NCBI GenBank assembly: GCA_011033025.1
Contig: WFMF01000069.1
Span: 372,001 to 436,000, forward strand
DNA length: 64,000 nucleotides
Direction: 5' to 3'
DNA from: Beroe forskalii
Taxonomy: Eukaryota > Ctenophora > Nuda > Beroida > Beroidae
The stretch's first letter is position 1. The number at the start of each line of letters is the position of its first letter. The notes under the pieces were generated by a model. That model ran no database searches. It saw only the letters and a program-made list of their open reading frames with translations, and had not been told where the DNA came from. Position numbers and translations under genes: made by a program. Below, in pieces: positions 3,941 to 58,400 of this stretch.

Positions 3941-6528
3941 TAAGAGTTCACTTTTCATCAAGAGGAACGGTTAAAAAGTCCGTTAAAACTTTTAAAGTAG
4001 CACCGGTTAAATTAAAAGTCAGATAATATAAGAAATTATTCTTGATATGACCGGATATGAGGCATTTCATCATCTTATTTTCCCTATAAAACCACGCGTC
4101 GATGAAAGTCCTATAAAAAGAAGTCACGGAATAGGAAGTGATAAAACAAATCAGGTCGACATGTCATTGTTTTATGATTTCAGAAATGAAGAATATCAGA
4201 ATTTTGATTAAATGTGATAAAGAATTGGAGTTTTTTGTCGAAATAGTCGGTTGTAATTTTGGTATTGGGGTCAATTAAAATAGCCAAATACGTATACCTT
4301 TAAATACCCACTGGTCTTGGGATATGCTTACATCTCATAGTAACAGAGAGTAATTTAAATCTTAGAATTAGGGATGCTTATTGGGAAATTCAAGAGTGAT
4401 TTTGTCAGGGCTTCTCACAAATTCCGCGTCTTTGAATTGTCATTTCCAACTGATTTTACATTTCCAATTTGGCAATTGAATAGTTCAATAATTTATATTT
4501 ACAGAAATTAGTTTAAGATGCAGTTGGAACAAACTACTTAAGTGATAGAAATTACGAGGCGCTCTAATTATGACGAATGGAATCATGATCGGTACTAATT
4601 ATGATCCAAAAATTTTCTTGAAAATTTTTTTGTCCAAGGGCCGGGCCGGTTAGAATGATTCAAAATGATTCGATTTTTTTGTCCATAGGGCCGGTTAAAG
4701 AAGGGTCGGCTAAAAAAAATACAAGAGCTAAATTAAGGCTAATAAGGTAAGTCGAGAGAACTTCCACGATCCTCATTTACACGATATAAATAATATGAAA
4801 AGATATATTATATTTATATCATACCAGTACTTTCGTATCAATTGTTTATTTTCGTTGTCAAGAGGCTATAATTGTAAATTTTCATACCTAGACCCTTTTA
4901 TTTGCTAGGGCACGGCTGCAGAAACAGATAATTTTGCAAATTTGAGGTATGCTAGGATATTTGCAGCTTCAAATGCCTGTTAGACCATGTTGGTCTCAAC
5001 TCTCAAAACTCCGCCCCAAGTATGCCTCATATATCTTATATTCCAATAGTCTAAATACCATGCTCAAACATCGAAAATGCCAATTTTTAAAGTGACTAAT
5101 TTATGATCTATAAAAATTATCATATATATATATTCACGCTGAGGTGCTCAGCGTGACAGCAAATCATAATGAATTTTAGGAGGGACCAAAAATTTCGATT
5201 GTACCGAAAAAAACTCAAAATATGTTAAAATATCTGGTGCAAAGCTCGTTTGAAATAATTAATTTTTATTCATGACTGAAAATGGCAATTTTATGATCAT
5301 TCAATTATTAATTTTTAAAGCACACGAATTCATATGTATTTTCTAAGCCTAAATTGTCATGAAACATTAAAAAATGATCTAGGACCAACTAAAACTTACT
5401 TGTCCCCCATGTTATATCGTCAAACATTTCTTAATCCAATAGATTTCAACTCTAAAATTGAGTTGGAATTGTCAATTCGTTTCTATAATCTTATACATTA
5501 TAAGTACAGTGAGTACCTATGTACAATAATATATTTTTCAAGTTCATACTCTTACCGGTTGAATTGTGAGGTATCTCAACGCTTCTTGTCTTTCGGTGGA
5601 GCACCTTTCAGATTTTCATGCCATATTGAAGTATTGTTCTCTTTGTTGATTTATCATGTGCACTCATTCAAGTCCACATTGCAGATCCAAACTGCCATGA
5701 TTCCTGTTCACATTGTAGTTGGTAAAATTTTTAGTCTCAAAGTATCATTAAGCATTCAAAATCAATCATATTTTCAAAAATTCTTAAGCGATCAGTGAAT
5801 GGGATTCAATCAATCAAAAACAGTAATAGGATTCCTTGAAATGAGATTATAGAAACAATTGCACAAAGCTGAGTGCAATAATTCAGTTCATAATAAATAA
5901 AAGTAAAAAATCTCCTCAGCACTAAAAATAGGGTAGTCAACAATTGATATATAAATTGGAGAAACATTTTATCCAATCAAGTAAATTATACTGAAAAAAT
6001 GTGAAGTTTCACTGGCGTCAAAACGAAAATACAATATAGCAATATGAGTAATTTTTGTCGAAGGATATTTTATGGTCCTATAACATAGACCTAGGGATTG
6101 TCAGGTGAACAGGATTAACCATCCAGTACTAGGTGCCATAATACAAGAGATTAACTTGCACCTTGTGTGATAATGAAACTGGAAGGTGTAATGTGTTAAG
6201 TGTTACCTAAGCAAAAGGTGCAAGAGCTTGTCTGATAAATTCAATTCAATTAAATTCAATTATATTTTTTTACAGCACAAAACTTGACATATATTTTTCT
6301 CTGGGTTATAATGAAGAATCTGGGAGGCACCTAGTCAAATTTAAAATCTGTTAATAGGGCCTCCCATCAAGGACTATAAGTATAAGGATAAATAATCATA
6401 TATATGCATGCAAAGACGGTGGCATAGTTACCAAACTATAATCATAGTTGAAAAAACCATCGCTGGGCATTCAGTGAATCAAGAAACCAGGGAAATCAAG
6501 AAAATAGTAAGTTTCATTTCATTTATAC
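3941..6528. other. Long AT-rich stretch without a supported gene
   Basis: It contains a perfect hairpin at 5135-5155 (9-bp stem CACGCTGAG, loop GTG). An open frame of 154 codons at 5334-5798 on the plus strand has no recognisable domain and AT-driven composition, and I judge it chance. No splice-bounded exon was convincing. Confidence 0.5.
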
Positions 6529-6671
6529 ACCACCAAAACCGTTGGACGGTTGGTCTAGTAACCCCCCGCTGGTTTGGATGTGATCAGCCCATTTTGTCTC
6601 TTTTCAGGTTCCGTTGTCACATCCAAACCCGCGTGGGGTTACTAGACCAACCGTCCAACGGTTTTGGTGGT
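6529..6671. mobile_element. 143-bp foldback MITE, copy 1
   Basis: The ends accaccaaaacc and ggttttggtggt are inverted repeats. The inverted arms continue inward for about 60 bases each (gttggacggttggtctagta and its complement), leaving only a short loop. The same element recurs at 7129-7271 in reverse orientation with the same length. The target duplication is not clear. It has no coding capacity, and the superfamily is unknown. Confidence 0.85.
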
Positions 6672-6689
6672 GATATCTTGACAGATGTA

Positions 6690-6830
6690 TGTTTGAACCC
6701 ATGTTACTTGCCCAAAGGCAGTTTGGACCCACGTAACTTGCCCTCACGTAGTCCGAACCCATGTTATAAGCCCACACGCAAGTCTAACCCACGTAACTCA
6801 CCCTGACGAAGTCCAAAACTACGTTATTCT
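6690..6830. repeat. About 30-bp tandem repeat, four diverged copies
   Basis: The phrase gaacccatgttacttgccc recurs with changes about every 30 bases (gacccacgtaacttgccc, aacccatgttataagccc, aacccacgtaactcaccc). Each is followed by a variant of acgtagtc. The array immediately follows the first MITE copy. Confidence 0.8.
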
Positions 6831-6860
6831 AACTTGGATTTACTAGAATTGATATATTTC

Positions 6861-7129
6861 TTAATTTCTACAAATCATCCATATGAACTCAGGTGCTGAA
6901 ATATAACAAACAGATCTAATTTCACGTGCATCAGTCGTATTTGAACTCATTTCGACGTCACCAAGTCGAAAATCCCGTGTAAATATCAATTTCTTCAAAT
7001 CCCCTAATTTCTACAAAACGGCCGTATGTACTCACGTGCTGAAATGTAGCAACCAGATCTAATTTCACGTGCAGTAGTCGTACTTAAACTCATTTCAACG
7101 TATTCAAGTCGAAAATCCCGTGTAAATAA
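6861..7129. repeat. Direct duplication, 143 bp apart, of a 126-bp segment
   Basis: 6861-6986 and 7004-7129 share taatttctacaaa, gtgctgaaat, cagatctaatttcacgtgca and gtcgaaaatcccgtgtaaat in the same order. Divergence is moderate. The second copy ends exactly where the second MITE begins. Confidence 0.8.
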
Positions 7130-7271
7130 CCACCAAAACCGTTGGACGGTTGGTCTAGTAACCCCCCGCGGGTTTGGATGTGACAACGGAACCTGAAAAG
7201 AGACAAAATGGGCTGATCACATCCAAACCAGCGGGGGGTTACTAGACCAACCGTCAAACGGTTTTGGTGGT
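7129..7271. mobile_element. 143-bp foldback MITE, copy 2, inverted
   Basis: This is the reverse complement of 6529-6671 apart from a few substitutions; the asymmetric centre (caacggaacctgaaaagaga) is reversed relative to copy 1. The two copies face each other across 457 bp. The following gatata run is a short simple repeat. Confidence 0.85.
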
Positions 7272-7400
7272 GATATAGATATAGATATACAGATATACAG
7301 ATATACATATCAATAGAGGATAAAAACAACGACAAGTATGTCCTTTTTATGATGTCATATCTCAAAAACTATAAAAGATACATGCTTTATCGACCCAGCA

Positions 7401-8050
7401 TTTGAAAGAAGAAAGATAGAACTTTCAAAAAATGGCGTCAAAAATTATCTGATGACAATGCAATGATGTCATAATGACGTCACAAAATCAAGAATTTCAA
7501 ATTTCCATTTTCCAAAAATAGGCGTTTTTCAACGCCATTTTTCGGTATGAAGCTTTCGAGATAGAGAAAAATGCATCACATAATGCAGAAAGGAAATTTG
7601 ATGTACTTTCTGAAAATGTGGTCAAAAAGTTTCGGGCTCCACAGAATAATGGAGATATTCGCGATTGTTTGGACCATTTTGACGTAAAAAATTGCAAAAA
7701 AATAGCCAAAACGGCAAGTTTAGTGGTGAAAAAACAGGGGCATCCCAGGACTCCATATCACTGTATGATGTCGGTCATAGTGTCCCATGAACTAATAAAT
7801 GGGTTTCAAGTTGAATCTCAAATATGATGACGTACTTATGACGTCATCAGTTGCACGCGGTAAGTCATTTTTTACACACAAATGCAGCTAATACAAGGTC
7901 GATATGTACGGTTCATCAAACTGGTGTTTGAAAGAAGGAAAGTAAAAACTCCAAAAAGTTCCCCCGAAAATAACTGATGAAATAGTGGTGACGTCATAGT
8001 GACGTCATGAAATCACGTTTTTCAAAATTTGACTTAGAATAGACGTTTTC
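7401..8050. repeat. Two diverged repeats about 525 bp apart with paired TGACGTCA-like sites
   Basis: tttgaaagaa followed by (g)aaag, an actgatgaca/aactgatgaa phrase and a double tgacgtca run occurs at 7401-7530 and again at 7926-8050. The shared order implies an old duplication. An open frame at 7618-7827 between them has no recognisable motif. Confidence 0.55.
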
Positions 8051-8141
8051 AACCCTATCTTTTGATCCTATTCCTACTATTTATTACGGTGATTCTTCGA
8101 ATTTTCACAATAGGATTGAACACTGAAAAAGAATGATATTT

Positions 8142-8415
8142 TTCCCAAAACCAAAAGGATTTGGTTGTGATGGTCCGCGGCGATGTTTAAGCGTTCTTTA
8201 TTGAAAATCCATGATATGAGAAAGAACGCGACGGTTAAAACTGCCGCAACGTCACTTTTTAGTTCTTTGAGCCATCAGGCGTCAGTGATGGGGTAAAATG
8301 CGACGTTGCGGCAGTTTTAACCGTCGCGTTCTTTCTCATATCATGGATTTTTCAATAAAGAACGCTTAAACATCGCCGCGGACCATCACAACCAAATCCT
8401 TTTTGGTTTTGGGAA
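8142..8415. mobile_element. Long foldback element with near-perfect 110-bp arms
   Basis: The left arm 8144-8253 (from cccaaaaccaaaaggattt to gccgcaacgtc) is nearly the exact reverse complement of the right arm 8302-8413. Only a 48-bp loop separates them. The arms differ by one or two inserted bases. A transcript would form a long double-stranded hairpin. No target duplication or coding sequence could be identified, so its mode of movement is unknown. Confidence 0.85.
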
Positions 8416-39900: not shown

Positions 39901-40526
39901 ATCAGTATATGTGGTGTCAGCGTCATGACAGAGGGAAGTGAATTGGTGACGCATGTAGTAATTGGTATGTGTGTGCAGAATCTGAAACTGTGATGCGTGG
40001 TATTTTCGCCCATAACGCGCCGTCCACTGACTTCATATCGACAACTCATTACAATATTTCATCTCCTATATTCGCTCTAGAGTTGGTGATTTCATTGTTA
40101 TGTGCTCTTGTTCGGCTAGTTGCACTTATCACGTTTTACTGTTTACAGGATTTTCTAGTAAAGTTACATTTTTCCTGTAGAATATTATGATCAGGATTCA
40201 GGGATCGGACGCGATTAAATCGCCCCTGTATGGGTTATCTCTTTTCTATTTGTCTAGATTCAAAGAAGTCTGCGACAGATGTCTTGAATAATAATCAATG
40301 TTCACTTTTTGATTAGAAATTTTTTGAGTCGTATAGAGATCTGGTCGAATGAAAAAAGCAAAAAGCGGATGTAGTGTCGAGGAGGACAAATTGAAGGAGC
40401 TTTTGGCATTTGTCTTTACCCCTGAAAAGTTATATATATTTTCTCCATTAACTCTTGCCTTCTGCTCATATTGTCCATCGCAACAATTAACAACCTCTCT
40501 CGGTCTCGCTCTACACCTCTTTCAGT

Positions 40527-43028
40527 GCGCTGCACTTCGTTACAATCCATTATATTATTATATTTTGAAGGTCTTGAAACTGCGTTTGTCCGGAAAAGGT
40601 ATTATTGTCACTCTAACAAAAGTGTTACTTGTTGCGACTTCACACATCAAGCTGGAGCGTGATTGAGAGTTAGAGAGACTGCGTGATTTATAAGGGGAGC
40701 TCTTGTAGTTCAGCAGAACCAGCCGGGTTGTAGGTAGTTACAAACGAGGGATTGTGGCTATTATACCATAGATAGGCCGTTAGTTGGCTTAAACCTTAAT
40801 ACTTCCGCCAATATTCGTATATCATCCTTCATCTTTTACATGCTTTATCAAAGTGCTTTTATTCTTTAAAACTCTAGTTTCGGTGTGTTCTGTCGGAGAG
40901 AAACATGAAAAGAGCTCGGTGCTCGCCAAGCTGTGTCATATAGCAAGCCATCGACCGGCGAAGTCACGTGACTTTCTTGAAGATCGTGTCATTAGACGTT
41001 TATATACCGCTTTTTATAAAATGCATTGAAACGCGCCTTTTGGGTCCATTTTGGGTTACTTCTCAAGTGCGCAGCCCGAGAAATGTGTCGTTTAGATCCA
41101 CAGCCCGAAGGGCGAGGGTCTGGACCTTTATTGAAAAGATAACATCATCGATGGTACCTCATAGTCTCATTGCGAAATATTGTCTTATTTGTATATTTGT
41201 AAGCCTTATTATTAGGTCCCCCTCACTTTTAACACGTACACGTCTATGAGAATATTCTGCCCACCTTATAAGCTTATAGTATATAACCGGGTATTATATG
41301 AAAAAGGTCATCATTCCGCTGGATAGAATACACATTAAACTCAGCTTCGCCTCGTCCAGTATGCATCACAACACCGCCAAATAGTTCTATAGAAATAAGC
41401 CGCCCTAACGATTACTATCCTGATGTATCAGTGATATAAATTCTGATAATATTTATAAGTTTATTATATCGCTGCTGTTGCTATTTACGTCCCTGTGATG
41501 CGGATATTCCACCAAGGAAAGAGAGAGAGAGTAGCGCGCCCTGCGGAATGTATCGGAATGTCCGCGTAAAAACCTATCTCTCTCTCGTAGCGCTGCTAGC
41601 AGCTAAAATTCCATAGTTACGAACTCGGGCCTCTCTTGAGCTGTTGCTGCTGCTGCCTGTTATATAACATCACATGTAATATAGCAGTAGTAATATATAT
41701 AAATACCAAATCTATATAATATTATCGCGCGTCAGTCGGCGACAGTGGTTTATCCTTTGTAGAACGTAGAGACCGTGTTTATTTATATATTACATGTTGA
41801 CCTGGCCTGCTGTAGTATTATAACATATATACGATAAATAGTGCAAATTCTTGAGAGAGGGAGGGAGAGTCAACACGTTGAGAGATGGAAGACTGTAAAG
41901 TACGGGGTATGACGTAGCAGAAAGCGAGATATATCTGGTATTTATATTATATAGTTTCACCTACACAGCTACACATACTCACATAAAGTTGCAGGGAAAT
42001 TACTACGTTGTTACTTGGTGGTGGGAGTTATAGATGAAACATAAAGGTTGCAATAAACGAACAATGCACGTTATTACATTTTAGAAGATATCGACCGGGC
42101 AGTTTTGAAAGAAACACGTTATTGGAATCGGTAGTCAATGCAGTTTACGTTGCAGTCTCCCCAGTGAAATATTTAGTTTTCGTGAAAATTATAGAATAGA
42201 ATAATTATAGAATAAAACAAGAATTGCGCCTGCAGGCTAAATTATTGTTTGTCCCGTTGCCTCGTTTTGCAGGCGCTTTATTTCCCTCTCCAACGTACTT
42301 GAATTAACGCGCGCACGTAATGGCACGTGGGTGAATTCGGTCCGATACACGTGCCAAATCATTGCGCGCGCTCCCGCCAATTCGTAGAACTCTTTGTAGA
42401 TTTGGCCATTTTGTTTGCGCGCCATTTCATTACGAATAGCGCCATTTTTGTTACGCATCATCCTTTCTTTCTTTATTTGATGTCGATCGATATCGCATGA
42501 CAAACCATACTACCATAGTACTATTGTTGCAATTTATGGTTCATGTTGCATCACACCGTCCCTTTACATGATTTCATGAAGTCAAGACATGGAAAAGAAT
42601 TGATAGGTACTTCAAACTGCTCAAGATTGACGATTCTGATATGATAACCGAGACAAATTTTTCATCGGAAGCCATGGTCATCATTGATTGCACTCAAATT
42701 GCTCATTGTAAATTGTTTCTACAAGATCACTTGATGAGGAATTCTGTGACAGCGGGTCAGTTGATAGATAATAGATTTTTCACCCGACTTATCCACAGGC
42801 CTGGGCCACGTCTTATCATTGAAATTAATCAAGCAAGTTTAAAAAAGGAATCAAAATTTTCTAGGTCAGGATCACCGGAGCATTGAACCCAAATAGCTGT
42901 AAGCTAGCTGCTGTGAGAACTGCACACGATGCCACTACACCAAACTGAGAAACTACACCGGCGCGAGTGATTTTATAAAGGAGCAGTTGGTTTATGCACC
43001 TTGTGCCTGTAATGGTACGTTGTTAACG
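40527..43028. other. Stretch right of copy B without a firm gene
   Basis: It has a GCCC-GAA-GGGC mini-hairpin near 41103, a GCTTCGC near 41343 and GA-rich runs near 41520. A minus-strand frame of 88 codons at 42237-42503 (KKERMMRNKNGAIRNEMARK, then LEREIKRLQNEATG) is less AT-rich than its surroundings and could be an exon, but it shows no known motif. Confidence 0.35.
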
Positions 43029-43110
43029 AAATCTCCCTCAAATATGTGGACATCTCCCTCAAATTTGTGGACATCTCCCTCAAATTTTGTGGACATATCT
43101 CCCTCGGACT
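43029..43110. repeat. 21-bp tandem repeat, three to four copies
   Basis: tctccctcaaattt(t)gtggaca recurs at about 43029, 43050 and 43072, then degrades into the dispersed repeat that follows. Confidence 0.8.
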
Positions 43111-43265
43111 TTCCGGGCACTTTCCAGAAATTACAGTAATTGTATTGCAAATCTGGACCTGCTATGCACATATCCTATATCTCATCTTCCCAAACACGAT
43201 CTCTGCTAACCCTCTCATTTGCCTTTTTGTAAAACAAAAACGCAATTTGGAGAGGGAAATAAAAA
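43090..43265 (+). repeat. Dispersed repeat, second copy (see 9231-9400)
   Basis: It shares gggcactttccagaa, ttacagta and gcctttttgtaaaacaaaaa with the copy at 9231-9400 and is followed by tandem ataaaaatagaa units up to about 43300. Such a tail suggests the 3' end of a retroposon. Confidence 0.55.
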
Positions 43266-43439
43266 TAGAATAGAATAAAAATAGAACAGAATACAATTAA
43301 ACAGAAATGTACAGCCTACAGGAAATGCTCATAATATCACGAAAATATCCCAAAATGTCAAATGTATTAAACCAGCGCGACTTTTATCTTTTTAAAATGA
43401 AAATATGTAGCACCCTGGACAGCATACGTAGAGTTCCTG

Positions 43440-44830
43440 TCATCAGCAGTTAGGCGTGTTGTTAGGCGTGTTGTTAGGTGTGTTGGTGTTGTTAGGTGTT
43501 ATGTTAGGAGTCTTGTTAGTGTGTTGTTAGGTGTGTAGTTAGGTGTGTTGTTAGGTGTGTTGTTAGGCGTGTTGCTAGGCATGTTGTTAGGTGTGTTGTT
43601 AAGTGTGTTGGTGTTGTTAGGTGTGTTGTTAGGTGTGTTGTTAGGTGTGTCGTTAGGTGTGTTGGTGTCGTTAGGTGTGTTGTTAGGTGTGTTGTTAGGT
43701 GTGTTGTTAGGTGTGTTGTTAGGTGTGTTGTTAAGCATGTTGTTAGGTGTGTTGTTAGGTGTGTTGTTAGGTGTGTTGTTAGGTGTGTTGTTAGGTGTGT
43801 TGTTAGGTGTGTTGTTAGGTGTGTAGATTGTAGTTAGATGCGTTGTTATTAGGTGTGTTGTTATGAGAGTTGTTAGTGTGTTGTTAGGTGTGTAGTTAGG
43901 TGTGTTGTTAGAATGTTAGGTGTGTTGTTAAGTGTGTTGTTAGGTGTGTTGTTAGGTGTGTTGTTAGGTATGCTGTTAGTGTGTTGTTAGGCATGTAGAT
44001 TGTAGATTGTAGTTAGATGCGTTGTTGTTAGGTGTGTTATTATGAGAGATGTTAGGTGTATTGTTAGGAATGTTGTTGTTAGGCCTCTTGTTCAGAGAGT
44101 TGTTAGGAGTCTTGTTAGGCGTGTTTTCAGTGCGTTGTTAGGTGTTTTAGGTGTGAACTGTGTTGTTAGGTGTGTTGTGAGGTGTGTTGTTAGGCGTGTT
44201 GTTAGGTGTGTTGTTAGGTGTGTAGTTAGGTGTGTTGTTAGGTGTGTCGTTAGGTGTGTTGTTAGGTGTGTTGGTGTTGTTAGGTGTTATGTTAGGAGTC
44301 TTGTTAGTGTGTTGTTAGGTGTGTTGTTAGTGTGTTGTTAGGTGTGTAGTTAGGTGTGTAGTTAGGTGTGTTGTTAGGTGTGATGTTAGGTGTGTCGTTA
44401 GGTGTGTTGGTGTTGTTAGGTGTTATGTTAGGAGTCTTGTTAGTGTGTTGTTAGGTGTGTTGTTAGGTGTGTTGTTAAGGGTGTTGTTAGGTGTGTTGTT
44501 AGGTGTATTGTTGTGTGTGTGGTTAGGCATGTAGATTGTAGATTGTAGTTAGATGCGTTGTTGTTAGGTGTGTTATTATGAGAGTTGTTAGGTGTATTGT
44601 TAGGAATGTTGTTGTTAGGCCTCTTGTTCAGAGAGTTGTTAGGAGTCTTGTTAGGCGTGTTTTCAGTGCGTTGTTAAGTGTTTTAGGTGTGAACTGTGAA
44701 CTGTTAGGCATTCTGTTAGGTTGCTAGGCGAATTTTTAAATTTTTAATATGTTGTAAGATCTGTTGTTAAATTTGTACTGTGTTGTTAGATTGTTAGATC
44801 TGTTTTTAGGTGTGTATTGTGTAGGGTCTG
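43440..44830. repeat. 12-bp minisatellite with higher-order repeats
   Basis: The unit is gttgttaggtgt. A block of about 170 bases (gcatgtagattgtag... to gtgaactgtg) occurs at about 43992 and again about 535 bases later, and tgttatgttaggagtcttgt recurs three times. Twelve is a multiple of three, so the array reads as LLGV on plus and NTPN on minus without stops. These frames are products of the repeat. The array decays from about 44700. Confidence 0.95.
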
Positions 44831-47387
44831 TAAATGGGTGGGTCTTGAAAAACTGTTTAAAACACACGTTTAGGTGAGATTATAGCAAGGTTTTTCATCT
44901 TTCTTTATATCGGTGTGTCTGTTCCTGGTCGGTGTGTTTTTGTGTTTGTCTCTGACCGGTCTTTTTGTTACCCATGCCGTAGCTTTCCGTGCTAGAAATA
45001 TTAAATATTTTACAGGCACTTTTATATAACATAGCTATAGGGAATTATAATATTGAAATGCACAATGTTATGATATGACATACTACGAAAGTATGAAGCG
45101 ATAGTAATTCTAAAGGAATGTGCAGCGCGGTTCGCTTTCCGAAACTCATCAGTTCAGGGAAAGGATGTATAAATATATTCAACTGTAATGTAGTATATTA
45201 AATGTTATATATTGCAAGTTATGAGAACCTTGTAATGATTCGGAATTGTGGTATAAATATCCTCCTATGCCTGTTTGGGAGCGTTAACAGAGTTACAACT
45301 TATTTGAAGTTTATTTGCATGGTAGCAACCTGCAACCTTGCAAATATTTCTTTCTTTTGTTGTGTGACCAGATCGAACCTGATACTTATATTGATGTTTT
45401 GTTTGATCGTTTTTTGTGGGGTTTTGTTTACCCGACACCCGTTACCAAGATTGTCAAGTACCAGGCGAACTAGTAACATTTCTTTAGAATTCAGCGATAA
45501 CTGAGAAGTCGAGCTAATTCATTTGAAACGTGACTTAAAAATCGATTTTACTTTCCCACAGCCATCGAGAGTGAGCCATCAATTTAAAATTTTCTTTGAT
45601 GGACTTATTTTTTAAATCTTCTAAGAGCCTCATTATTCAGAACGTTTTGAGTGGATCTGAACTTTAAACCATGACAGATTATTAAAAATCAGCGGTCTGT
45701 CGTTTTTAGGGATGGTGCTCAATTAGAACTGCTTTTACTGAGAATCAGATCAGTGGTTATAATGAGAAATTTGCTGAAGGGGGAGTTGCCCTTGATTAAT
45801 TGCAGGAGAGAGCGACACCACCCTCTCCTAGGTCTAATCAATGAATCATTTGAAACTATCATCTACAATATAACCACTTATTCCGTGGATCACTAGTGAA
45901 GATAATATATTGCTGTGTATTTGAACCACGAAATGATCGGAGACGAAATGGCTGGAGTGGATCCTCACGAATTAGTGGAAAGTGTGAAGAATACGAGTGC
46001 ATATCATGTCCTCCTCGGTGTATCATCCAGCTCAAAACGATAAAGAATATATACAAATAGTTGTCACTTGAGGACGTTAATAAGCTGCCTACCCGTCACA
46101 ACCCCTCTAATATATGACAGATATCATACTGAGTGGTTACGTCATACATGATAATGTGTGAGATCTCAGCAGTATATATCCCGGTAGATGTGTTACAATG
46201 AATTTGTATCTCTGTGTATATACTACCACACAGTGTTTAATGCCTAAACAACTACAATGGAAGATCGGAGAGCTTGGTGGTTTTCTGAGATATATCTATC
46301 AGAACACACGGTCCATGAGCTCAATAAAAAGTGGGACATTCCTCTCTGCTCTGCCATGTACTCTCCGTGAGTGCAGTGTTTAATATACGGCTTCCACCGT
46401 CCTCTCTCTCTCCCTCTCCCGTAGTGCATTCCATTGGAAGTAAGCGAGTTGTCACGTATTTCCTGTTGTTACTTTCACGGCTATGGCACATCACGTATTT
46501 TACTTTACTTTTATATATCGAAATATAAAAACCTTTATTGTGTGCGCTGTTATATCATCATTATGTCTAGGGACATTCTCTGTAGGTCTTATTATATTCT
46601 GTAGTCTATAGTAGTAGTAGTGGTTTGGTGTCTTTTATTGGCTTTTTATTGACCGCTTTCATAAATCGTTATTGACTGCGTCATGATGTCATTCTGCTAT
46701 TGTCTTGTGCGAGCTGTTGTAGCGTAGTTATGTTGAGCTATGTTTTCATTTCCATGTATTACAGGTCATTATGTTAATGTCATATATTTATTGTACACTA
46801 CTACCCACTCCGACATGAGACATGTAATTGGCTGTTGTTCATTCCTTAACCTAGGCAATGGTCACGTGACCATCAGACAAAGACATCGGGTATTGTTGTA
46901 GTCCTTGCCTTTTAGTTACGTCCGATAGGTCGAGATCCTATAGTTTCTCATTATATTATTCGACTACTTATCGTCTGTTATTGCGCTGTTTTACATGTAT
47001 TGTCTCAGGTCACGTTATATTGCGAGTATTGAGGCGTTTTGCTGGGAATATTTTACTGTAAAACAGTTACCGTAATAGGCACTGATGATGTGTTAAACGA
47101 AAGATTTCTGCCTCATTTTGATGAGCGTTTAATTCAGTATATCAGCATTTCATTCTTGTCAGAGCGATTGGGAATTTATGTATTCATAGTTACCGTAATA
47201 TTCCGGTCATCCTCGGATGATGTCAATATGATGCAATATAAAGTGTACTACCCCCTAGATCTATCTTTCTCAACATGAGACTATGGCAAATATATACCAC
47301 TACATTGACTTGTATATTTTACAAAGTTTATCATATCTCTACATTGATACATTTACCATCATCCACACATCATGTTATAATATAGGA
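44831..47387. other. AT-rich stretch without a supported gene
   Basis: Several open frames of 60-100 codons occur on both strands, none with a recognisable domain. There is no repeat array. Confidence 0.45.
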
Positions 47388-47490
47388 TAATCAAACACCC
47401 TTAGGATACGTTTATATGAATTATCACACGAGCGAAGCGAGTGTGATAATTGAATTTTGGGATATAAACGGTCCTTAGGGTGTTTGATTA
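47388..47490. repeat. Nested hairpin capped by gagcgaagcgag
   Basis: The outer arms, 47388-47417 and 47462-47490 (taatcaaacaccc and its complement), are about 90 percent complementary. Inside them sits a second perfect stem, attatcacac (47420-47429) with gtgtgataat (47441-47450). The tip is the mirror-symmetric motif at 47430-47441. Confidence 0.85.
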
Positions 47491-47879
47491 ATCTATTATA
47501 TAACGTGAGAAACGGGCGGATATCTACACTGGTTTTTCCAATAAAAAGCAAATTTAGAAGCTTTTAAATATAAAAACTTTGAGCTAGAGAGTATAGGGCC
47601 TGAAATTGAATTGGGAAAATATCAAGATTACCAGGAATCTTAGATTAGATGGTGAAGAGTGGCTATGTATATTTAAATTTGCCTTCAAAGTATGAATAAA
47701 ACGTAAATCCGGAGTCTTTATAAACTTTGCTCATATCTTTTGATTCCAAGGTACTATAAAAGTATAAAAGTGATTGTCGATTGAAATGTGTAGCAACATC
47801 AAAACAAAATTGAAAGATCATTTCCGTGTAAGTGTGTAACACCGTAACGGATGCACATTTATAGGCAAATTGTAGTGAG

Positions 47880-48360
47880 GGTTAGTAGGTACACGGCTCA
47901 TATAACGACTTGTCATACATGTGAAACCAAAAACAAGATAACAAAATAAATGTATACACTGCTACACTGATGTATCCTTATGGAGTGAGAGCAAGTGGTC
48001 TTACTGGCACGTGGGTGCGGCTCATATAATGACCAACAAGTATAGATAAACTCATGAAACCAAAACAAGATAACACAATATGTATACACTGGTGTATCGT
48101 AATGGAGTGAGAGCAAGTTGTCTTACTGGCACGTGGGTGCGCGGCACATATAATGACAAACAAGTATACATAAACTCATGAAACCAAAACAAGATAACAT
48201 AATATGTTTACACTGGTGTATTGATTTAGATCAAGTGGTCTTTACTGGCACGTGCGTGCGCGGCTCATATAATGACTAAAGTGAACGGTGAATGCATAAA
48301 CAAGATAACATAAGATGTATACACTGGTGTATCGTAATGGAGGAGTGAGAGAATTGACTA
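47880..48360. repeat. About 122-bp tandem repeat, four copies
   Basis: ggctcatata occurs near 47895, 48019, 48143 (ggcacata) and 48262. Between them run aaccaaaacaagataaca, gtatacactggtgtat and ggagtgagagcaagt. The array ends at about 48360. Confidence 0.85.
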
Positions 48361-48424
48361 AAAGTCCGATTGAAATGATTTTACATAGTAAATAAATACG
48401 AATAACAAAATTCTTAAGTTTTGA

Positions 48425-48538
48425 TTTTTGGGGTGTGATAATTTTTCAAAGGTGTGATAACTGTTCTTTGAGGGGTGTGATAACTGTACAGTTAACACAC
48501 ACCTGGAAAAAATTATCACACCCCAAAATTTCGAAAAT
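48425..48538. repeat. Foldback repeat with ttggggtgtgataattttt arms
   Basis: The left arm near 48425-48447 pairs with 48514-48538. Two further ggtgtgataact copies and a taactgtacagtta palindrome (48481-48494) fill the centre. Confidence 0.75.
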
Positions 48539-48661
48539 TTAGAAATCTTATGAAAATTATTAATTGACCCCTAAACTCCATTTTTGAAGCCGTTATATAA
48601 CAAAAATTATCAGAGCAAGAATTATATAACGATCGTTATATAATATAGAGTTACTCAACGA

Positions 48662-48810
48662 ATAAGTGTGAAGTAACATGATTTATGCCACGAGCGAAGC
48701 GAGTTCCATAAATCGCATTATTCACCGAAGCCGAAGGCTGAGTTGAATAATGATTTGTTTTCAACGAGGGCGTAGCCCGAGTTGAAAACAAGCTGTTACT
48801 TCACACTTAT
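48662..48810. other. Perfect DNA cloverleaf: 17-bp stem enclosing three hairpins
   Basis: 48662-48678 (ataagtgtgaagtaaca) is the exact complement of 48794-48810. Inside lie three separate hairpins. Arm 1: 48680-48687 with 48707-48714, 8 bp. Arm 2: 48716-48724 with 48744-48752, 9 bp. Arm 3: 48756-48765 with 48781-48790, 10 bp. Each arm carries a smaller hairpin at its tip: GC-GAA-GC at 48694-48700, AGCC-GAA-GGCT at 48729-48739 and GGGC-GTA-GCCC at 48768-48778. No mismatch was found in any main stem. It is not a tRNA, since the A and B box sequences are absent. It might be the terminal structure of an unknown element, a structured RNA or a recombination site; the sequence alone does not say. 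Confidence 0.8.
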
Positions 48811-51170
48811 GAGTTGTGTAACGATATTATTCACCAAGTGTACAAAACTACAAAGCCTTGAGCCTTTAAAAGGCTGGGGTTTTTAGCATTCTTCACAGTT
48901 CACAGCAGAAAAGGACGTTCCGTAGTATCACTTTTTTAGTGGAGAGCAATTATCTACTGATCAGGCAAATTAGCAGTGTACCAGCTCTCTCAGCAGAAAA
49001 GGACGTTCTCTCGTATCACTAATTTGGCAAAAGTGTTGAATAACACCATAAAAATGGCAAATAACACGGTGTAAGAGTGGAGTAACATGGTAAAAGTGTG
49101 AAATAATACTAAAAGGGTGGAGTAATACGACAAAAAACTCAAAATAACACGTTTATATTCAACCGGAATAACCCCACCACATGGTGAATAATAGAATTGA
49201 CACGGTTGCAGTTTGAAGTGTACTCGGCTTCGCCTCATGACTACCAATTCATTTCCACCCTTGAAGTTCACAATGAAATCATATAACTTCGATCAATATT
49301 ATACAGCCTATACAGAAACAAAGTCATAATAGTAATAATAGCATGAGAATCTAAGAATAGACTCGATGTGATACAAGATCAACTCATCACCATGATGAGA
49401 CAGAGAGATACATATCTAAACTTCTTATTGAGGTTCCGCATGAACTGTAGTGAAAGGAGGGTCACATCATTATCATGGTTCAAAATGATATATTTATGCG
49501 GTATTCCCTGTCTACATTTCGTTTGCTCTGATTCTTTCTTATCCTATATTCGCGTGATAATATTCAACACAACCTCGCTACAATCTCACTTACGTGAGCT
49601 TCATTGTTCTCGTCTTCTTGTGAGCTGATCAAGCTCTGAAAATAGATCAGTCTTATCTCTGTTTCATCCTGATATAGCTAGCATTGATGAAGCTGGAAAT
49701 AGCTGGTCGTCATACATTCGTTATTTCCTGATTTCTTTCCTGATTTGCACTTTCGTAGATTCGTATAGTATATTTGGAGACATTGACCGATCAGAAGACT
49801 TTTTTACTTTTCCTTACTTTCGTCAGATATTTCGAACAATCGCAGAATACATGTATGCCTTATGCGAACTATGTTAAATATTTTACCCCAGCTCAGACCA
49901 TCGATTATCTAAAAATTTAGGTTATACGTTACGGTCATATTACAAAATCAGAGTACAAAATGGGTTTAAAAGGAGTGAGAGAAATTTTTATTTTATAATC
50001 GAGCACTCAAAAATTTATGAAAGCGTTGAATACGGAGGAGGTTTGTGAGATCATAGTGGAAGGAAACTGTCATCTGGTTGGTGTATAGTCGGTCCTCGCT
50101 ATTTTGCGCATATTATTACTGGTCCGGTTCCCAGGTCTCAGCTATGAGCGTGACAGTATACACTATACATTCGATACATATGAACTCGGCACACTTCGTC
50201 CGTTAACAAGTCTCGGCTTTCGCCAATCCGGGACAATGATCGATTAGATACTAAATTTAGATCAAAAATATCGGTTGAATTTGTTTATAATACACCATGT
50301 AACGATGTAAACCGCGAATTAACGACATTTCCCTTGTCTATAGCGTAAACTGTGGAATATTCAGACGCAATAAAGCCGTTTCACATTGTTTCCATTCTGC
50401 TCACGCAAATAGACAAATCGGTTCAAGTGCGCCACGTAATTTCGTCTAAATTATCACTACTGACGTGAGTGGAGCAGACACCAAATGAACTTGCCCGCTA
50501 ATTGCCTCTAAACAGATCGCATTATACGACGTCACACGGCTCTTTAAATATAATATACGTACAGTTCCCCAACTGTATTATATAATACAGCCACGTTTGT
50601 ATATATTTAAATTCTGTTTTTGAAAAGTAACCAGTGTGACGAGCTCAACTCACCACTTTAAACCATGATAATGACGTCATCATTTCCACGTACACACACA
50701 ACTCCCTCAGCGCTCAGGTCTGATTTCAGGTGGCGGTAGTCACTCCCATGATATTATGAGCTGTGCTTATGATGTTGTTTACGTGTAAATAACATATACT
50801 AAGCTACGTGTTTCCACTTAACCGTGATTCGCTAGTACTTATGTTGCGTATAAGTGCACACCTATATGGTGGATGGAAACGTCATTATGATGCTTTAATG
50901 TGGTGCGTTGTGCACGTCACTGTGCCTGCTCTTCTTATTATACGTGATATATTAATGTTATTTTGTGTAATGTTTTTATAATCACTCAAACAATGGAATT
51001 GTCTATTGGTCATTACAATTCACATTCAAACTTGAGTAATTACATATTTACAATATATAGCGAGTTTTACAGCTGGTGCTACTGAATTCACATTTTGTGA
51101 AATAATAATAGTTCGTGATTTCTTCAATTTGTTTAAGAGAAATTTAAATGCTGTTTACGTGATTCTTAGC
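48811..51170. other. Stretch with minor repeats, no supported gene
   Basis: agcagaaaaggacgttc occurs at 48904 and 48993. A diverged 25-bp repeat (ggagtaacatggtaaaagtg) lies at 49020-49150. A CRE-containing motif is at 50647-50682. Open frames at 48990-49271 and 49368-49628 have no recognisable domain. Confidence 0.45.
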
Positions 51171-51370
51171 TACCTTAGGTGTATTTATGTGGAGTAAAAT
51201 TTTGGTGTTTACAAATTTGGTAGGTTGTAATTTGGGGATCTTTCTCAAGTCATTACTCTAGTTAACATATGATAATGATGTCATTTTGAACTGTCATGGT
51301 GGGTAAAAATATGGGGATTTTTCCGAAAAATCCCCAAATTACAACCTTTATAAATACACCTCCTAAGGTA
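51171..51370. mobile_element. 200-bp foldback MITE-like element
   Basis: taccttagg with gtgtatttat at the left end is mirrored by ataaatacac and cctaaggta at the right. A second inverted block, ggttgtaatttgggga against tccccaaattacaacc, lies inside. The target duplication is unclear and there is no coding capacity. Confidence 0.65.
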
Positions 51371-52066
51371 ATTTCGATAAATCACTGTCTGCGAGACATA
51401 ATAAACTGCTGCCACTTTAGGCGTGTCTGCTTTATATTAGTTTGTGAGCCAAAGGATGGATTATAACGAGGGTGCAAAAATTGAAGGATTATAGCATATT
51501 TTGTCGAAATAACGATAATCGCATGATTTTCGAAATTTTCAAAACAAATATATAATTTTGTAATTTTGTTTGTGTTTTTTTTTCTTGAAATAACCACTTC
51601 TCTGAAAGGATCATTTCAGCTGCTTGTCAGTTTTATTACGGTATTTGGAAACCATTTGCGAAGTAATGGATCGATTGATTAAAAACCCTCGTCAAGGCAC
51701 CGCCAAGGGCTTCTAAATGAAGTGTATTTGACATAAAACGTAAGCCATTATAACCAATTACAGGCCGAGCTCACAGGAAGCTCGCACTTCCAGTGCGTCA
51801 TATGCTGCAATCGTTGTGATCGTGACACAGGTATACAAACCTGAAACCAACCGCCGGTAGTCGCCTGTTCTAAGACAATATGTTGTTTTTATCATCTTCA
51901 TGATACATACTAACAGAAGGACAATCAAATGTTAAATCACCATAATATATACTCAAACCGTGCCCTCTTGATGGATCTGTCAATTGAGTGGCTGTTCTTT
52001 TTAGTAATCAAGTCTGAAATTATCAAATTCTATTGTTATTCTATTGTTATTAAGCACATAATACTA
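51371..52066. other. Stretch without a recognised feature
   Basis: Nothing recognisable apart from AT-rich DNA. Confidence 0.4.
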
Positions 52067-52996
52067 GGGCGTTCGGAAATGATTGTCACTACAGGCATAA
52101 AATGAAAAATATAACCAAAAATACCAAAATTCCAACATAGTCGAGTACTAGGGTCTCTACCAGACTGAATTGAAAATTTTCAGTGTTTACGAAGATTTTT
52201 GAGTGGGTCATCTAGCCTGTTTTATGATTGTTTTCAGGTGCTCCGCTGTATGGCGACTTCTACATCCTCTAGGCCATGTTTTTATGGTCCGATTTCACTA
52301 TTCAGGACATATTCAGGGCCTTCAGGTCCAAAACTAAAGAATAGGATGGTTGGTTGACATCCGGGGCAAATTTCTATATAATTTAACCCTGCATTATTGA
52401 TAATGAGTAGAGCTAAAAATTGGCAAATTTAACAGTTCAGTAACCGATAATGCAGTACACAGCTAGCACACACGTTTCTGATGTTAACAAAATTAGTCAA
52501 AACCTTTAAAATGGTTGTCTCGTGTACGGAAGGGTCTGAACTAATAGCCTAACACGATAACCGAAGGTTTCATGTATTCAAATGTTTTATTTCTGGGCAA
52601 TTGCCAGAGCAAAAGTTGCAACTGCCCTATCTGGAGCATATCCTTTTTGAGGTCAAAGCACCCCTTAGGATTATTTCATCTCGACGAAAACCAGTCCATT
52701 TGTTCTGGTTAGCATCCACGTGTGCTGCAACAGCCTCATTTTGATTATCTCACACTTCTTGGGTCTGTTGATAGCGCGTTTTGTTTGACAACGAAATTTG
52801 TGGTCAGTTTCGTACAGCGGAGCAAATAATTAGAAATTTAAATCTGCTGTAGAATGGGCTAAGAAAACTTAGTTATCGGTAAAACCCGATTATCTTAATC
52901 CAAAAATGTCTGAAAAAAACGAATATCACATCTAAAAGTCACTTCTGGCAGCCGTTTCTCCAAAAAATTGCAAGTGACAATCTTTTCCGAACGCAC
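52067..52996. mobile_element. 930-bp TIR element, probable TA duplication (mariner-like)
   Basis: GGGCGTTCGGAAATGATTG at 52067 and, read from the other end, GTGCGTTCGGAAAAGATTG at 52996 differ at two positions and continue into TCACT. TA stands on both sides (52065-52066, 52997-52998). The interior has no transposase frame, so it is a deletion derivative or a MITE. An ATT microsatellite follows at 52997-53016. Confidence 0.75.
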
Positions 52997-54689
52997 TATT
53001 ATTATTATTATTATTTTATTCAAGTTCGAGCATCATCATGATACTGTGATATGTGTTCTGGTATTGTTAAAGACAACTTTCAACCACCACACGAAAGACC
53101 TACACTTGGTATATGTTCTATTATGCAATTATGTATATAACTGTTACTCTCTCTATCTGCCTCATGATACTATAGACCAACTACCACTAGAATGCCGTAT
53201 ATTTCCCTGCTTTGGAGTCTCAAGTTGGCCGTTTGACGCCACCAATTCACCACTCCAAACCATCGGGGTGATGTCACAGGCAGTCACTCATAGGTAACGT
53301 TAGAGCGACGTCTTGTGCCCCCTCTCTCGCTCTCTGTGACCTCAAGGGTTCACATGGGAATAGATCTCAACCTCCCCACATATATACCAAATAGTATAAT
53401 ATGTTGAAGAAAATCTTTGACAAAGCAGATCGGCCAGGTACTTCGTCATCATAGAGCTAGAAGGGATCTTCCAAATAGTTTCTCAGTAGACCAAACAGCG
53501 CTAGGTCTCTCTACGTACGTTGGTTCCGGCAACATCTGAATGCTGTTGCCCGACCTGCTCACCTAGTACTTGTTGATATAGCCGTATTCCGCAGCCAAGC
53601 ACCAATATTCGAAGGGTTAAGGTACCAAACGGGACGAATCTAACCACTGAGAACAGATCGACAGATCCTAACTCCAACGTACTGCGTGTCCAAGAGGGGG
53701 TTGTTTCGTGCCGGTCTCGGGTGGTTTGAAATTGTGATACTCCTTTTTCTTTATTAATTGTTTTCGTTTATTTCCTCTTCTATCGATTTTTCCTCCTCTC
53801 AGCATACTTATAATATAGTGTTGGGTGGGTGTGTTATTAAGTTTACGGAGTTCTAGGGATACGAAAACCGAAATGTTTGTTTTAGTAGGTGCCGGTACTT
53901 GATAACCATGGAATCACCACAACATGATCAGGTTGAATCACTCTGATTTACCTGGGAGTGGTTGTGATCAATATGTTTTAAAATGCGTCACCGTTGTACT
54001 GGTGCGCGTTTATTTTACAAAACTATTTGAAATGTTTTGTTTCGACTTTTGTTTCCAGTTTAAATGGTGAGATCACACATGAACAGTAATTCTGAATGGC
54101 GGCTTCTCGAGTCGTATTTTAATAATATATCTCTCAGACCGTAATGAAAATTCATTAAGTCACGGTCATTTGATCCCATTACACACACGTATTCAAGGAA
54201 GGACGGGACCCCATGTGATACCTGCGTAATGTAATGAACTGGTTACTATGGAAACGTGAGTCAGACACACGTGACACATTTTCACTGAAAATTCACATAA
54301 TATATTTTACCAACTGTATCTGTACAATGTGTACTCTACTTGGTGTTGATGTATAAAATGTAGCTTATCATATAATGTGCATTTGTTACACTACGTTTAT
54401 ATGTTGTACACACCAATTCACGTTTATGTCACCGTGTGAATAAAGTAATTTATATTCATGTTACGTATAAAACATAATTCCCTGTTCACATATTGTGGTA
54501 TAATGATTCTCACACTCATAATTATGCGTGTATATGTGTGACTGTCTACAATCTATGCAGTACATAAGTTGTGTTATACAATGACGACACCTCTGATAAT
54601 TTACTGTAACACTGAGCCGCTGTGTTATGTAGGTATACACTGTGTAGTTTGTATAGGTAGTGTGGGTGGTGCAGTGAAGCTATATAATC
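52997..54689. other. Stretch without a supported gene
   Basis: The part 53480-53720 has higher GC but no frame, tRNA or 5S rRNA pattern that I recognise. A CRE-like composite motif stands at 53245-53276. Confidence 0.4.
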
Positions 54690-54840
54690 ACGTGATCATT
54701 GAGATAAGTCATCTGGAAACAAGTCACGTGACTTATTTAGTCACATGATCCTGTAGAAGCACATCAGCAGGTAAATGAACTATGTCATGTGACTTGCAGG
54801 TCACAGGTGACTGCGAAAAGTCACATGGTTTTCTTATCAT
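54690..54840. promoter_or_regulatory. Cluster of E-boxes
   Basis: Within about 150 bases stand cacgtg twice (once as gtcacgtgac), cacatg twice, catgtg and caggtg, all in a tcac/gtga context. Such palindromic E-boxes bind bHLH-zip factors (USF, MITF/TFE). No transcript start is evident nearby. Confidence 0.4.
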
Positions 54841-55264
54841 ATTGTCGTGTTTATGTGCCCTATAATGACAATTCGAAGTGTATTCTAATCAATACCGATT
54901 GCCGTGAAGCATTGATATACCATCCTAAACCCATCGATAGGTAGAAAATTTTATCGATTGAATTGATATAAGTTAAGCTTTTAGTGAATTTCTTAGTTCT
55001 GTCAGCAAAGAAACAAAGAGTAAACTTAACACTTCAATACCTCATGTATTATGTACAGCGGTTTATCATTCCATATTGCGTCATTGGAACTGCGCAATGT
55101 ATGAAAGTAATAAAAGATTACATACTTCGGATAACAATATTTTGAAACCCCTAAAATGGTTCGTAAGATGATATCGCGTACATTGCCCTCTCTCCCACTC
55201 AATGTGACAGGTGTTAAACCATTCTTCTCCGGGTGATGTCATCCTGACTCCTCTAAACTCCGCG

Positions 55265-55445
55265 TGCGCGAGAAATAGGCGCTTCAAACTCATTTCTAAC
55301 TTACTACATTACGCTATGATAATGACGAGAAATAGGCGCTTCTAACTCATAACTAACTTACTACATTACGTTATGATAATGACGAAATAGGCTCTTCAAA
55401 CTCATTACTAACTTACTACGGTGCGCTATGATAATGACGAAATCT
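55265..55445. repeat. About 62-bp tandem repeat, three copies
   Basis: cttc(t/a)aactcat followed by aacttactac and tatgataatgacga occurs three times with small losses in the third copy. Confidence 0.85.
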
Positions 55446-58400
55446 TGACTGCAATTTATGAGCTGTAGCTGGGGTCACGCATCAGAAAATGACGGTATGA
55501 GAAGCCATCAACTCACCTCTCCAAACTTTCGTGATTGCGTCAGTTTAAACTACCGTTTACGGTACAGCTGGTGCACGGTCTATCTTCGCATCTTGAAATT
55601 GCTTCTCTTCTTGAGACTGTCTCCCCTCTTGAAAATGCTTCTGTTCTCTATCGAGCATCGCACATGTTATAATTCAATTAAACTTTTATTGTTTTACATA
55701 ATATTATAAATGCCGCAGACAAACTGCATAATATACGGAATATTACCATCTGTGTTTGATTGCTTCCTTCTGATGAATACAGTGAATGGCTGATGTGGTG
55801 GTATAGTACTATAACAACACGTACATGGACTTTGTATCATAGAATTTTGAAACAGGGTTTTGTTACCTATTATAGTTGTAATGTTATAAGTTATTTGGTT
55901 GTGGTTTACAACTGGGGCTACCGGCCAAGGACCAGGCTTATTCATCAAAATATACCGCTTGCAAGAGCACTTGTATTATTTCCCGCAGTAATAGATAATG
56001 TTCAGTGAGCATATTATAACAAATTAAAGAGCTGCAATTTATTGAATATTTTTGCCGATAAAACATAATAGAATATGTTTCAGTGTTCTCCATTTTCTCG
56101 GGTCTCCATTAGCACACGAGTGGTGCATCTCTGATAATTTAATTCCCTACGAATTATATGTACTGTAGGTCATGAAAAAACACTCTCGCTCACGTAACAT
56201 AACATCATAATAATATGTAATGTAATATATAATCTTAATGTTGGCTATAATGAAGTAGTAGGGGTGTATTGCAAGGGTAACGGTGGCGTTCCATTACAAA
56301 TTCAGTTATTAGAAGGCACGCGGTTACACGGTACAGAGATAAGGTTCCATTTCATTGCGCATTCCACGGTGCCCTATATACCACGTTATGTGGTTGACGT
56401 CAATCCGTCAATGTGAATTCCATCACGACGCTACAAGGCTATTACTTACGGAGCTTGAATATTTAGTTAGATCATAACATTATGACACAGAAAAATGTAC
56501 CCAATTTCGAGAATAGTCGAGTCATGGCGCTTTGAGTAAATCATTGAGTGAAACCATGCATCTCCTTCTGCACATAGTAACGCAAGTCCACACACACACA
56601 CACATACACACACTCAACATTATGTCTTATGATGCATACCAACATCTCAACATTCAAGACCGTCACTAAAGCTCATAATAATGAAGCAACTACTACGTGA
56701 TGTATGAGTGTGCGTGTGTATGTGTGCATATTGTGTTGCCATGATTTTAAAAACTTTAATTATATCAAAGCATGACCTAACGAATAAGCAGGTGAGACGA
56801 CGTGTGTTAAAAATGTGAAAACATTCAGAAAATACGACCTGCATATTATATAAAATATTCGTACATGATAATTTATGATTTTCATAAAATATATTATTAT
56901 ACTCTCTCTCCCAAGTTGGTATACTATTAAATAGCAAATGTTCAGTGAATTGAATTATCTTTAAATTCTACACTCTTGGAAGGTAGCCATTGCGTATATT
57001 GTCGAGTGCACACATGGGGCTCGACAGCGGTATATCATAGATTCCACACCACTAATTTATACATGACGTGCTCGACTGCATTATGATTCAGAATGGTGGA
57101 TTGTTCTGATATTTACCTAATATTATATAGGAATTATACCGCATATTCTGCGTTGTAGTGGATTCGCTCAATCGCTCATGCATATGGTTGGAGGAGGGGC
57201 CACCAGGTCCGCTCTTAATTTGTAAATCTCACAAGGAAATACATTCATATCAGCTATTAGCTCTTTATTTCAATCTATAAAATATGCAGTATGATTTATA
57301 TTCAAAGTATTCAAAGATGCAGTATGATTTGCAATTATATTCAAAACCTTGTAACTTTTGGTTTTGATGATCCTGTTCATTATTGGAAATGAGCTAGTGC
57401 ATTTGGGGGTATGTTAGGTCAATAATTGCAATTTGTCACGCGCGCACCACTATATTCCTAAATGCAACAGCAGTGACACACGATCTGGAAATGATTCTAT
57501 CTCCACTCGGATATGTTGTCATGATCAGTTACTGTTATACTGTAGCTCACTGGGGATCAGTTCTTAGTTGTGTGGTGTGGTGACTGTAGATGTAATACCA
57601 GAATACCGATTTTGTTTACTGCCGTTTACTGTCGATATTACAGTTCATAGCACTGGTAGATGTTATCTTAATTATTTGCTCAGATATCAACCAAAATTAC
57701 TCACTACAAATGAAGTTCAATAATATTATCAATCACGGGTTAAAACTTTATCACACAAAACATAAACTGATATAACCACTTGCTTAAATAAGATTTTCCT
57801 TTAATAACCCCCGCTTCAGCCTGCAGTTTAACAATTTATATCATTCCATCTATCCGAAAATATTTATGCAAATTTTCAAATACTGTTAAATTTTTCATCT
57901 GTCCGGATACTAACATATTTTCATCGTGCTATATACTAATATACGGGTTCACTATGATAATAATAATATTATGTGCTCTATGTGTACGTGCAGCTGAAAA
58001 CACTGGTATTTGTCACTCGGCTTCACTCCCGGCGAGGTAATAGGGTGCTAATTCCTGATGAACATTGTCATTGGCCGGCCTATATATATATGTAACATGT
58101 ATATCTAGTGGAGGTTCCCCGAGAAAAGTAGGCCATTTCTTGTGCTCAATTGTTCATTTGAGACCTTGATAATGACGTCAGTCTGCTGTTTGTTTGTTGC
58201 GTGTTATCTAGGTAGGGGTGGAGAAAGACGTGACTTGAAACAGTGCTTGCTATAATAATGTGGGAGGTATGCCACCTCTTTTCTCTGTTGTTTATCTCGT
58301 ATTGGTTAGATCTTACAGGTGTTGTTAATGTCAATTTTAGAATGGACTGGGTTTTCCTTATTTCCTTCTCCACTTCTTTTTATGTGCCTTCTTTCAATGA

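Follow-up and report, generated by a model that had tools for sequence, protein, structure and literature searches.

The cloverleaf-forming sequence at 48662-48810 of the window (the whole stretch of Beroe forskalii DNA that was analysed, 64,000 nucleotides) is, we are confident, the left (5') end of a mobile element, a reading to which the number of copies, the fixed ends and the empty sites give strong support. The element, here called A, belongs to a set of families (A/C/D, B, E and H) built on one plan: a folded left end, a guide, a 3' end reading AATAATA, and arrays. This common folded-end plan with its pairing code suggests movement as folded single-stranded DNA. The features of the window on which the argument draws are as follows.

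47377-47382, + strand: left flank (target) of element E, ATAATA
47383-48645, + strand: element E, non-coding, 1263 bp, directly upstream of A
47383-47493, + strand: left-end hairpin of E, with one arm in the window copy
47494-47505, + strand: guide of E, TATTATATAACG, its 12 nt an exact reverse complement of E's right end
48634-48645, + strand: right end of E, CGTTATATAATA, the last six bases of which are the left flank of A
48646-49193, + strand: element A, a non-coding mobile element of 548 bp (from common ends and empty sites)
48650-48822, + strand: left-end cloverleaf of A, stem helices and three arms (from folding and paired changes)
48680-48714, + strand: arm 1, 8 bp, GAA tip (GCGAAGC)
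48716-48752, + strand: arm 2, 9 bp, GAA tip
48754-48792, + strand: arm 3, 11 bp in the DNA fold and 12 in the RNA fold, GTA tip
48825-48836, + strand: guide of A, TATTATTCACCA, its 12 nt an exact reverse complement of A's right end
49035-49170, + strand: degenerate repeats of ~20 bp with AATAACA/AATAATA-like cores (by eye)
49175-49193, + strand: right end of A, a CACC-ACAT-GGTG hairpin followed by AATAATA (from the fold and the end reading)

Structure of the left end

A perfect stem of 17 bp (48662-48678 paired with 48794-48810) encloses three arms, whose tips are the triloops GAA, GAA and GTA in arms 1, 2 and 3. Folded as RNA over 176 nt the sequence reaches -83.5 kcal/mol against a shuffled mean of -35.7 (z -14.4), folded as DNA it reaches -48.9 against -15.4 (z -13.3), and none of 200 shuffles attains the energy of the cloverleaf in either model. 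The sequence-only reading had described arms of 8, 9 and 10 bp within the 17-bp stem; the stem and the first two arms are as given there, while arm 3 is longer by one or two pairs, depending on the model. The shape itself was rightly described, but the real fold is larger, with outer helices of 5 and 4 bp (48650-48659 with 48813-48822, a T.T mismatch lying between the helices) and a further outer helix of 7 bp (48640-48646 with 48824-48830), for a total span of 48640-48830. Rfam gave no match within positions 40000-56000 of the window. The exact arm pattern was tried as a route to the cloverleaf elsewhere and abandoned, with no match in two contig collections, one genomic and one viral.

Copies and extent of the element

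The assembly that we searched comprises 216 Mb in 1134 contigs. At least 41 places in it match a 191-base cloverleaf query at 97% identity or more, the number being a minimum because scoring covered 40 of 325 candidates, and the unit 48640-49193 is common to twenty fetched loci. Full-length copies of A are 90-98% identical to the window copy. Exact cores of the left end (LE) and of the right end (RE) occur 133 and 106 times in the whole genome, the reversed controls 0 and 0 times. Among the first 100 LE cores listed, 62 are followed, on their own strand and contig, by a listed RE; counted by hand from the table of listed pairs, 34 of them are spaced by 540-557 bp (family A), 16 by 759-791 bp (family D), and the remaining 12 lie at scattered distances, three at 12.8 kb or more. 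The 12.8-kb pair, on contig C66, was considered and rejected, its RE being part of a 5'-truncated copy. At ~580-822 of locus L045 a 5'-truncated copy of A has kept its RE and begins right behind an ATAATA-like sequence.

The longest ATG-initiated reading frames, taken from a single copy per family, encode 32 aa in A, 36 in B, 37 in C, 36 in D, 52 in E and 50 in H. A frame of 854 aa in L014 (5724-8285), behind a truncated A copy, has no Pfam match and was taken as an unrelated insertion. Pfam matches above the cut-off in the flanking loci were to LDL-receptor class A (L011) and F-box-like (L028) domains, which suggest an animal.

The sequence-only reading had proposed to look for other copies, for compensatory changes within them and for fixed flanks marking element ends, and was to be given up if there were no copies and no paired changes; copies, paired changes and fixed ends with empty sites are all present. 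Its view that the shape is either very young or maintained agrees with the high identity of the copies and with the A and C subfamilies, which hold the stem by compensatory changes. It erred in stating that nothing of that kind stands next to the cloverleaf, as element E ends exactly where A starts. Among the options that it left, namely an element end, a recombination site or a structured RNA, the first has strong support, whereas nothing specific, Rfam included, speaks for the last.

Insertion sites and element ends

To find empty sites, we joined the two flanks of each of 20 arrays and looked for the result in the fetched loci, the L022 row being excluded. Three target sites have empty counterparts; nothing was duplicated or lost at insertion, which took place directly 3' of a TANTA-like target. 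In L015 the occupied site GATATAGTACTA-(TAGAG..GGTGAATAATA)-CCCTCTAAATC, with the element in parentheses, is to be compared with CATATACTACTA/CCCTTTAAATC, an empty paralogue. L025 and L019 each carry an insertion at the site TGCAATAATA/AGTAATATTG, of which L019 also has two empty copies, and two copies of it in L015 are altered at the site itself. The comparison of L017 with L021 is weaker, at 85% identity and with differences near the junction. Spanning matches in L013 were discarded as empty sites, for they match further module starts. These results bear on the idea that a DDE transposase moved A as a conventional cut-and-paste MITE or foldback element. In its favour, the loci read commonly contain other foldback repeats. 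Against it, the three comparisons show no target duplication, and the inverted repeats are displaced by ~180 nt at one end; the empty sites largely refute this explanation, which we regard as very improbable.

The left hexamer of 23 non-tandem A, C, D and E copies is ATAATA in 13, GTAATA in 3, CTAATA in 2, ATATTA in 2, and GTACTA, CTATTA and GGAATA in one each; it thus differs from ATAATA in 10 of the 23, and GGAATA (1 of 23) lies outside TANTA. Four of these rows (L014, L018, L019 and L025) are at one repeat-borne site and hence do not represent four independent targets. Of the 61 rows in the left-flank table we dropped 14 in which AAATAA precedes a B-type start, taken as B's own hairpin on the other strand, as well as a B row (L026) that lies behind a mutated A right end. 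Right ends, read without anchoring on those letters, carry AATAATA in 25 of 25 A/D, 15 of 16 B and 2 of 2 C cases, that is, in 42 of 43 with all families pooled. Since the left hexamer varies and the right end is constant (Fisher test on the counts at the two ends, P = 0.0002, with 24 right ends used, one under the 25 found), we take the former as target and the latter as element, and the element ends read TAGAG...AATAATA. The next base past 10 A/D right ends that have no module behind them is A in 4 cases, C in 3, G in 2 and T in 1.

The same asymmetry argues against tyrosine-recombinase cassettes of a Crypton- or integron-like kind, whose circles would recombine at a short common core within a folded site. 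A core at both ends, head-to-tail arrays, a folded joint and seven Phage_integrase matches in the genome would all suit them. Simple exchange at identical cores, however, would not leave the left core variable and the right one constant, and of the integrases a single one comes near a listed A copy, at a distance of 10.6 kb, with ~0.13 expected by a rough estimate. We therefore regard such cassettes as highly unlikely.

With regard to the sites themselves, a repeat rich in ATTATTGCACTCGGCTTCGCCTCGTGCAATAAT-type hairpins was noted at L019 ~5727-6500 and L015 4434-4776, and the TGCAATAATA site of this repeat is a repeated target of A, C and H. The H copy in L018 occupies the same repeat-borne target as the A copy in L025.

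A common plan in several families

The loci read contain families A, C and D, with related cloverleaves, B (188 bp, one long hairpin), E and H. H was found at 3106-4531 of L009, with further copies on L018 and L002. Its left end is a second three-arm cloverleaf (DNA fold -57 kcal/mol), and its best match to A is 15 bp long (E 0.21), which is no significant similarity. A shares 27 bp (89%) with E and 25 bp (84%) with B, so E and B are not wholly unrelated to it. With several families on one plan, and two cloverleaves among them lacking significant similarity, the shape seems to be kept where the sequence is not. The L019 copy of E has ~60 bases more in its left end than the window copy, with a perfect 30-bp stem round three hairpin units; the lowest-energy fold of this end, at -55.7, is not the cloverleaf (-47.2).

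Some further repeats were seen in passing. Inside E, 48430-48528 hold the inverted repeat GGGGTGTGATAATTTTT...AAAAATTATCACACCCC (by eye, with part of it also matching in inverted orientation). At L009 3106-5733 two H elements stand apparently tail to tail, in opposite orientation and with their right ends almost touching. At 43545-44341 of the window the open frames consist of short repeated units (LLGV..., VVRC...) and look minisatellite-like.

Maintenance of the fold was assessed in 30 copies, 26 of them distinct. Paired cells amount to 98.0% versus 97.3% in shuffles, two-sided changes to 5 base pairs and 12 cells versus 1.7 and 1.8, and the covariation score is 0.043 versus 0.031 ± 0.002; when partners are slid by 1-3 columns, pairing falls to 31-44%. 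Further pair types are no more numerous than in shuffles (13 versus 11.7, with 98 of 500 shuffles reaching 13), and one pair in arm 3 is broken in 10 of the 26 distinct copies. The two-sided changes mostly separate C from A and thus represent few events. That H forms the same shape from other letters is a stronger sign of maintenance than this covariation.

Tandem sheared G.A pairs and the heptamer d(GCGAAGC) are very stable in DNA. All six LE types compared bear CGAG..CGAG tips on the + strand, and none does so on the minus strand. YGAR..YGAR tips crown 53 perfect hairpins in the window and L009-L028 (260 kb), as compared with none for a YAGR control; many of the 53 are copies of the same repeats. 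The DNA energies calculated for the two strands hardly differ (A, -48.8 for either; H, -57.0 on the + strand and -53.6 on the minus strand), so the choice of the + strand rests on the tip motif and the stability generally ascribed to it. Together with the letters common to the 5' sides of the two presumed cut points (TAATA on the left, AATAATA on the right), an arrangement also known from IS608, the motif points to the + strand as the one that is handled.

Guides, 3' ends and arrays

Behind each left-end fold stands TATTAT followed by family-specific letters, the whole being the reverse complement of the family's own 3' end. Measured in one copy per family, this guide has 12 nt in A (TATTATTCACCA), 11 in B (TATTATTTAAC), 11 in C (TATTATTTACC), 12 in D (with the letters of A), 12 in E (TATTATATAACG) and 14 in H (TATTATTACCCTGC). 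A scan for an LE hairpin, a guide and a matching RE returned 38 rows in the loci, whereas five passes over locally shuffled sequence returned none; the 38 include other-strand and doubled readings and give no count of families. TATTAT is also complementary to the usual target ATAATA, and the guide would pair imperfectly with the 10 of 23 targets that deviate. The joint pattern of head-to-tail arrays occurs 57 times and in the control 0 times. At an A-A joint the RE of the leading copy pairs in the fold with the guide of the next to close one extended stem; at the E-A joint of the window the RE of E and the guide of A are unpaired because their letters differ.

A guide complementary to a DNA end and to a DNA target speaks against a fold that acts as RNA, that is, with a structured transcript whose spread is incidental or goes via RNA. 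Paired changes are equally expected of such a transcript, but there was no Rfam match, and the duplication expected of LINE-type retrotransposition is absent; of all the explanations weighed here we give this one the least credence.

On balance we lean towards the view that these elements are non-autonomous and travel as folded single-stranded DNA with the help of an HUH-type enzyme, in an IS200/IS605- or rolling-circle-like manner. The + strand would be released as single-stranded DNA and then fold, and an HUH-type nuclease, supplied in trans, would bind the fold. The guide would pair with the left flank and with the 3' end, thereby placing both cuts, and would later pair with a new target. 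The ends would be joined in a circle, the joint of which would form one extended hairpin. As every copy ends in the target-like AATAATA, new copies would insert behind old ones, which would account for the arrays. The family-specific code linking guide and 3' end makes this mechanism testable, since a change in one side should force a change in the other. Several points speak against movement as a folded single strand: no transposase with these ends was found in the loci read, what we call guide and 3' end may simply be inverted repeats, displaced but otherwise ordinary, that are bound as double strands, and both the imperfect complementarity to 10 of 23 targets and the non-cloverleaf optimum of E in L019 fit it poorly.

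Search for a transposase

Profile searches of the genome gave 20 matches to Helitron_like_N, 7 to Phage_integrase and 46 to PIF1, a single Viral_Rep match below the cut-off (E 0.07), and none to Y1_Tnp (PF01797) at E ≤ 10. No transposase with A-type ends was found in the part of the candidate loci that was read, and the class of the enzyme is therefore a guess. For 11 of the 20 Helitron_like_N matches (contigs up to C432) there is no LE core within 10 kb among those listed, and the parts of Helitron-like loci that were read hold no Rep-helicase with the same ends. The Helitron at contig C914 was rejected as a partner because a foldback repeat, which houses the array found at that place, interrupts it. 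Related copies on C110 and C11, which have sequence in common up to a different 3' hairpin, were rejected as well, as were the Helitron-like loci at C1099 and C847, in the parts of which that were read no A-type ends are visible. Tyrosine recombinases were also set aside: of the seven matches, the one mentioned above is the nearest to a listed A copy, and none was shown to lie between matching ends.

Two loci with Helitron-like genes have features of their own. At L041 ~5468-8400 there is a large foldback repeat with B and A modules nested in its inverted arms; it has many copies genome-wide and interrupts a Helitron-like gene. At L040 ~1486-1530, shortly before a Helitron-like ORF with an additional match to a 2OG-Fe(II) oxygenase domain, we noticed by eye the motif ...GDVEENPGP, which we take to be 2A-like.

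Comparison with known systems

None of the known families that we considered could be shown to agree with these elements in every defining feature, and membership in any of them is not claimed. To our knowledge, the HUH transposons of eukaryotes are Helitrons and Replitrons, the latter having a Y1 HUH transposase with an oligomerisation domain. Integron attC cassettes are head-to-tail modules with a folded site, and in this they resemble the arrays described here; they differ in that no integrase was found linked to our modules, which are without ORFs of more than 52 aa.

The elements could also be a non-autonomous group of Helentrons or Helitron2 (HINE/DINE-like) read on the other strand, with an inverted repeat at the 5' end and its inner 3' copy, the terminal hairpin enlarged to a cloverleaf and a resident Rep-helicase moving them. 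Passages of PMC4067079 and PMC5148889 describe for Helitron2, Helentrons and HINE/DINE-1 inverted repeats of asymmetric layout, terminal hairpins and copies in tandem, and for Helitron2 and Helentrons also the lack of a duplication, all of which are seen here, the repeats and hairpins in mirror-image orientation; FoHeli 5' hairpins with GAA loops also figure in these passages. The 20 Helitron_like_N matches and one family with an OTU-like motif (by eye) point the same way. On the tip-carrying strand, however, the layout is the mirror image, the end structure is far larger, and insertion into TT is at odds with the bases found past the right ends. The one Helentron-type family compared at its 3' end finishes in another hairpin and not in TATTAT, no partner was found in the parts of the loci that were read, and no listed LE core lies near the 11 matches mentioned. 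Such a relationship thus appears unlikely, if less so than the other alternatives weighed above. With Helitron1 the elements have in common a 3' hairpin a few bases before the end and the lack of a duplication, and Helraiser is described as forming precise end-to-end circles (passages of PMC5876387), but TC...CTRR ends and an A/T target rule are not found here.

Replitrons are Y1 HUH transposons whose short direct repeats lie at their ends or close to them, and the elements might be members or relatives of that group. The direct ATAATA at both ends (a TANTA-like left flank and the AATAATA right end) fits the short direct terminal repeats described in a review passage (PMC10741241). The target duplications of 2-8 bp given there are absent from the empty sites; on this comparison, made by description, we think a Replitron origin quite improbable. 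Repetitive hairpin elements of sponge mitochondria likewise spread as hairpins with conserved stems, but they are mitochondrial and much shorter, and the passages of PMC2800124 at hand describe no guide or target rule for them. In the open-access PMC literature that we searched we found no description of the present group.

Transposition of a folded single strand steered by internal base pairing is established in bacterial elements, for example IS608. According to passages of PMC5934647, IS608 leaves its target TTAC in the left flank, and its guides base-pair with the cleavage and target sites. Our elements resemble IS200/IS605 in inserting without duplication on the 3' side of a short target that remains in the left flank, in their folded ends and in having an internal sequence complementary to the 3' end and the usual target. 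As far as those passages go, IS608 differs in having a 4-nt guide 5' of each hairpin foot, in place of the one guide of 11-14 nt that stands here 3' of the left fold, and its type of transposase, the Y1 TnpA, has no match in this genome. It is possible, and we offer it tentatively, that these families, with a transposase not yet known, form a new major group of eukaryotic single-stranded DNA transposons, in which the cloverleaf would be recognised and a family-specific 11-14-nt DNA guide next to it would set, through base pairing, both the 3' cut and the TAATA target by a logic like that of IS200/IS605.
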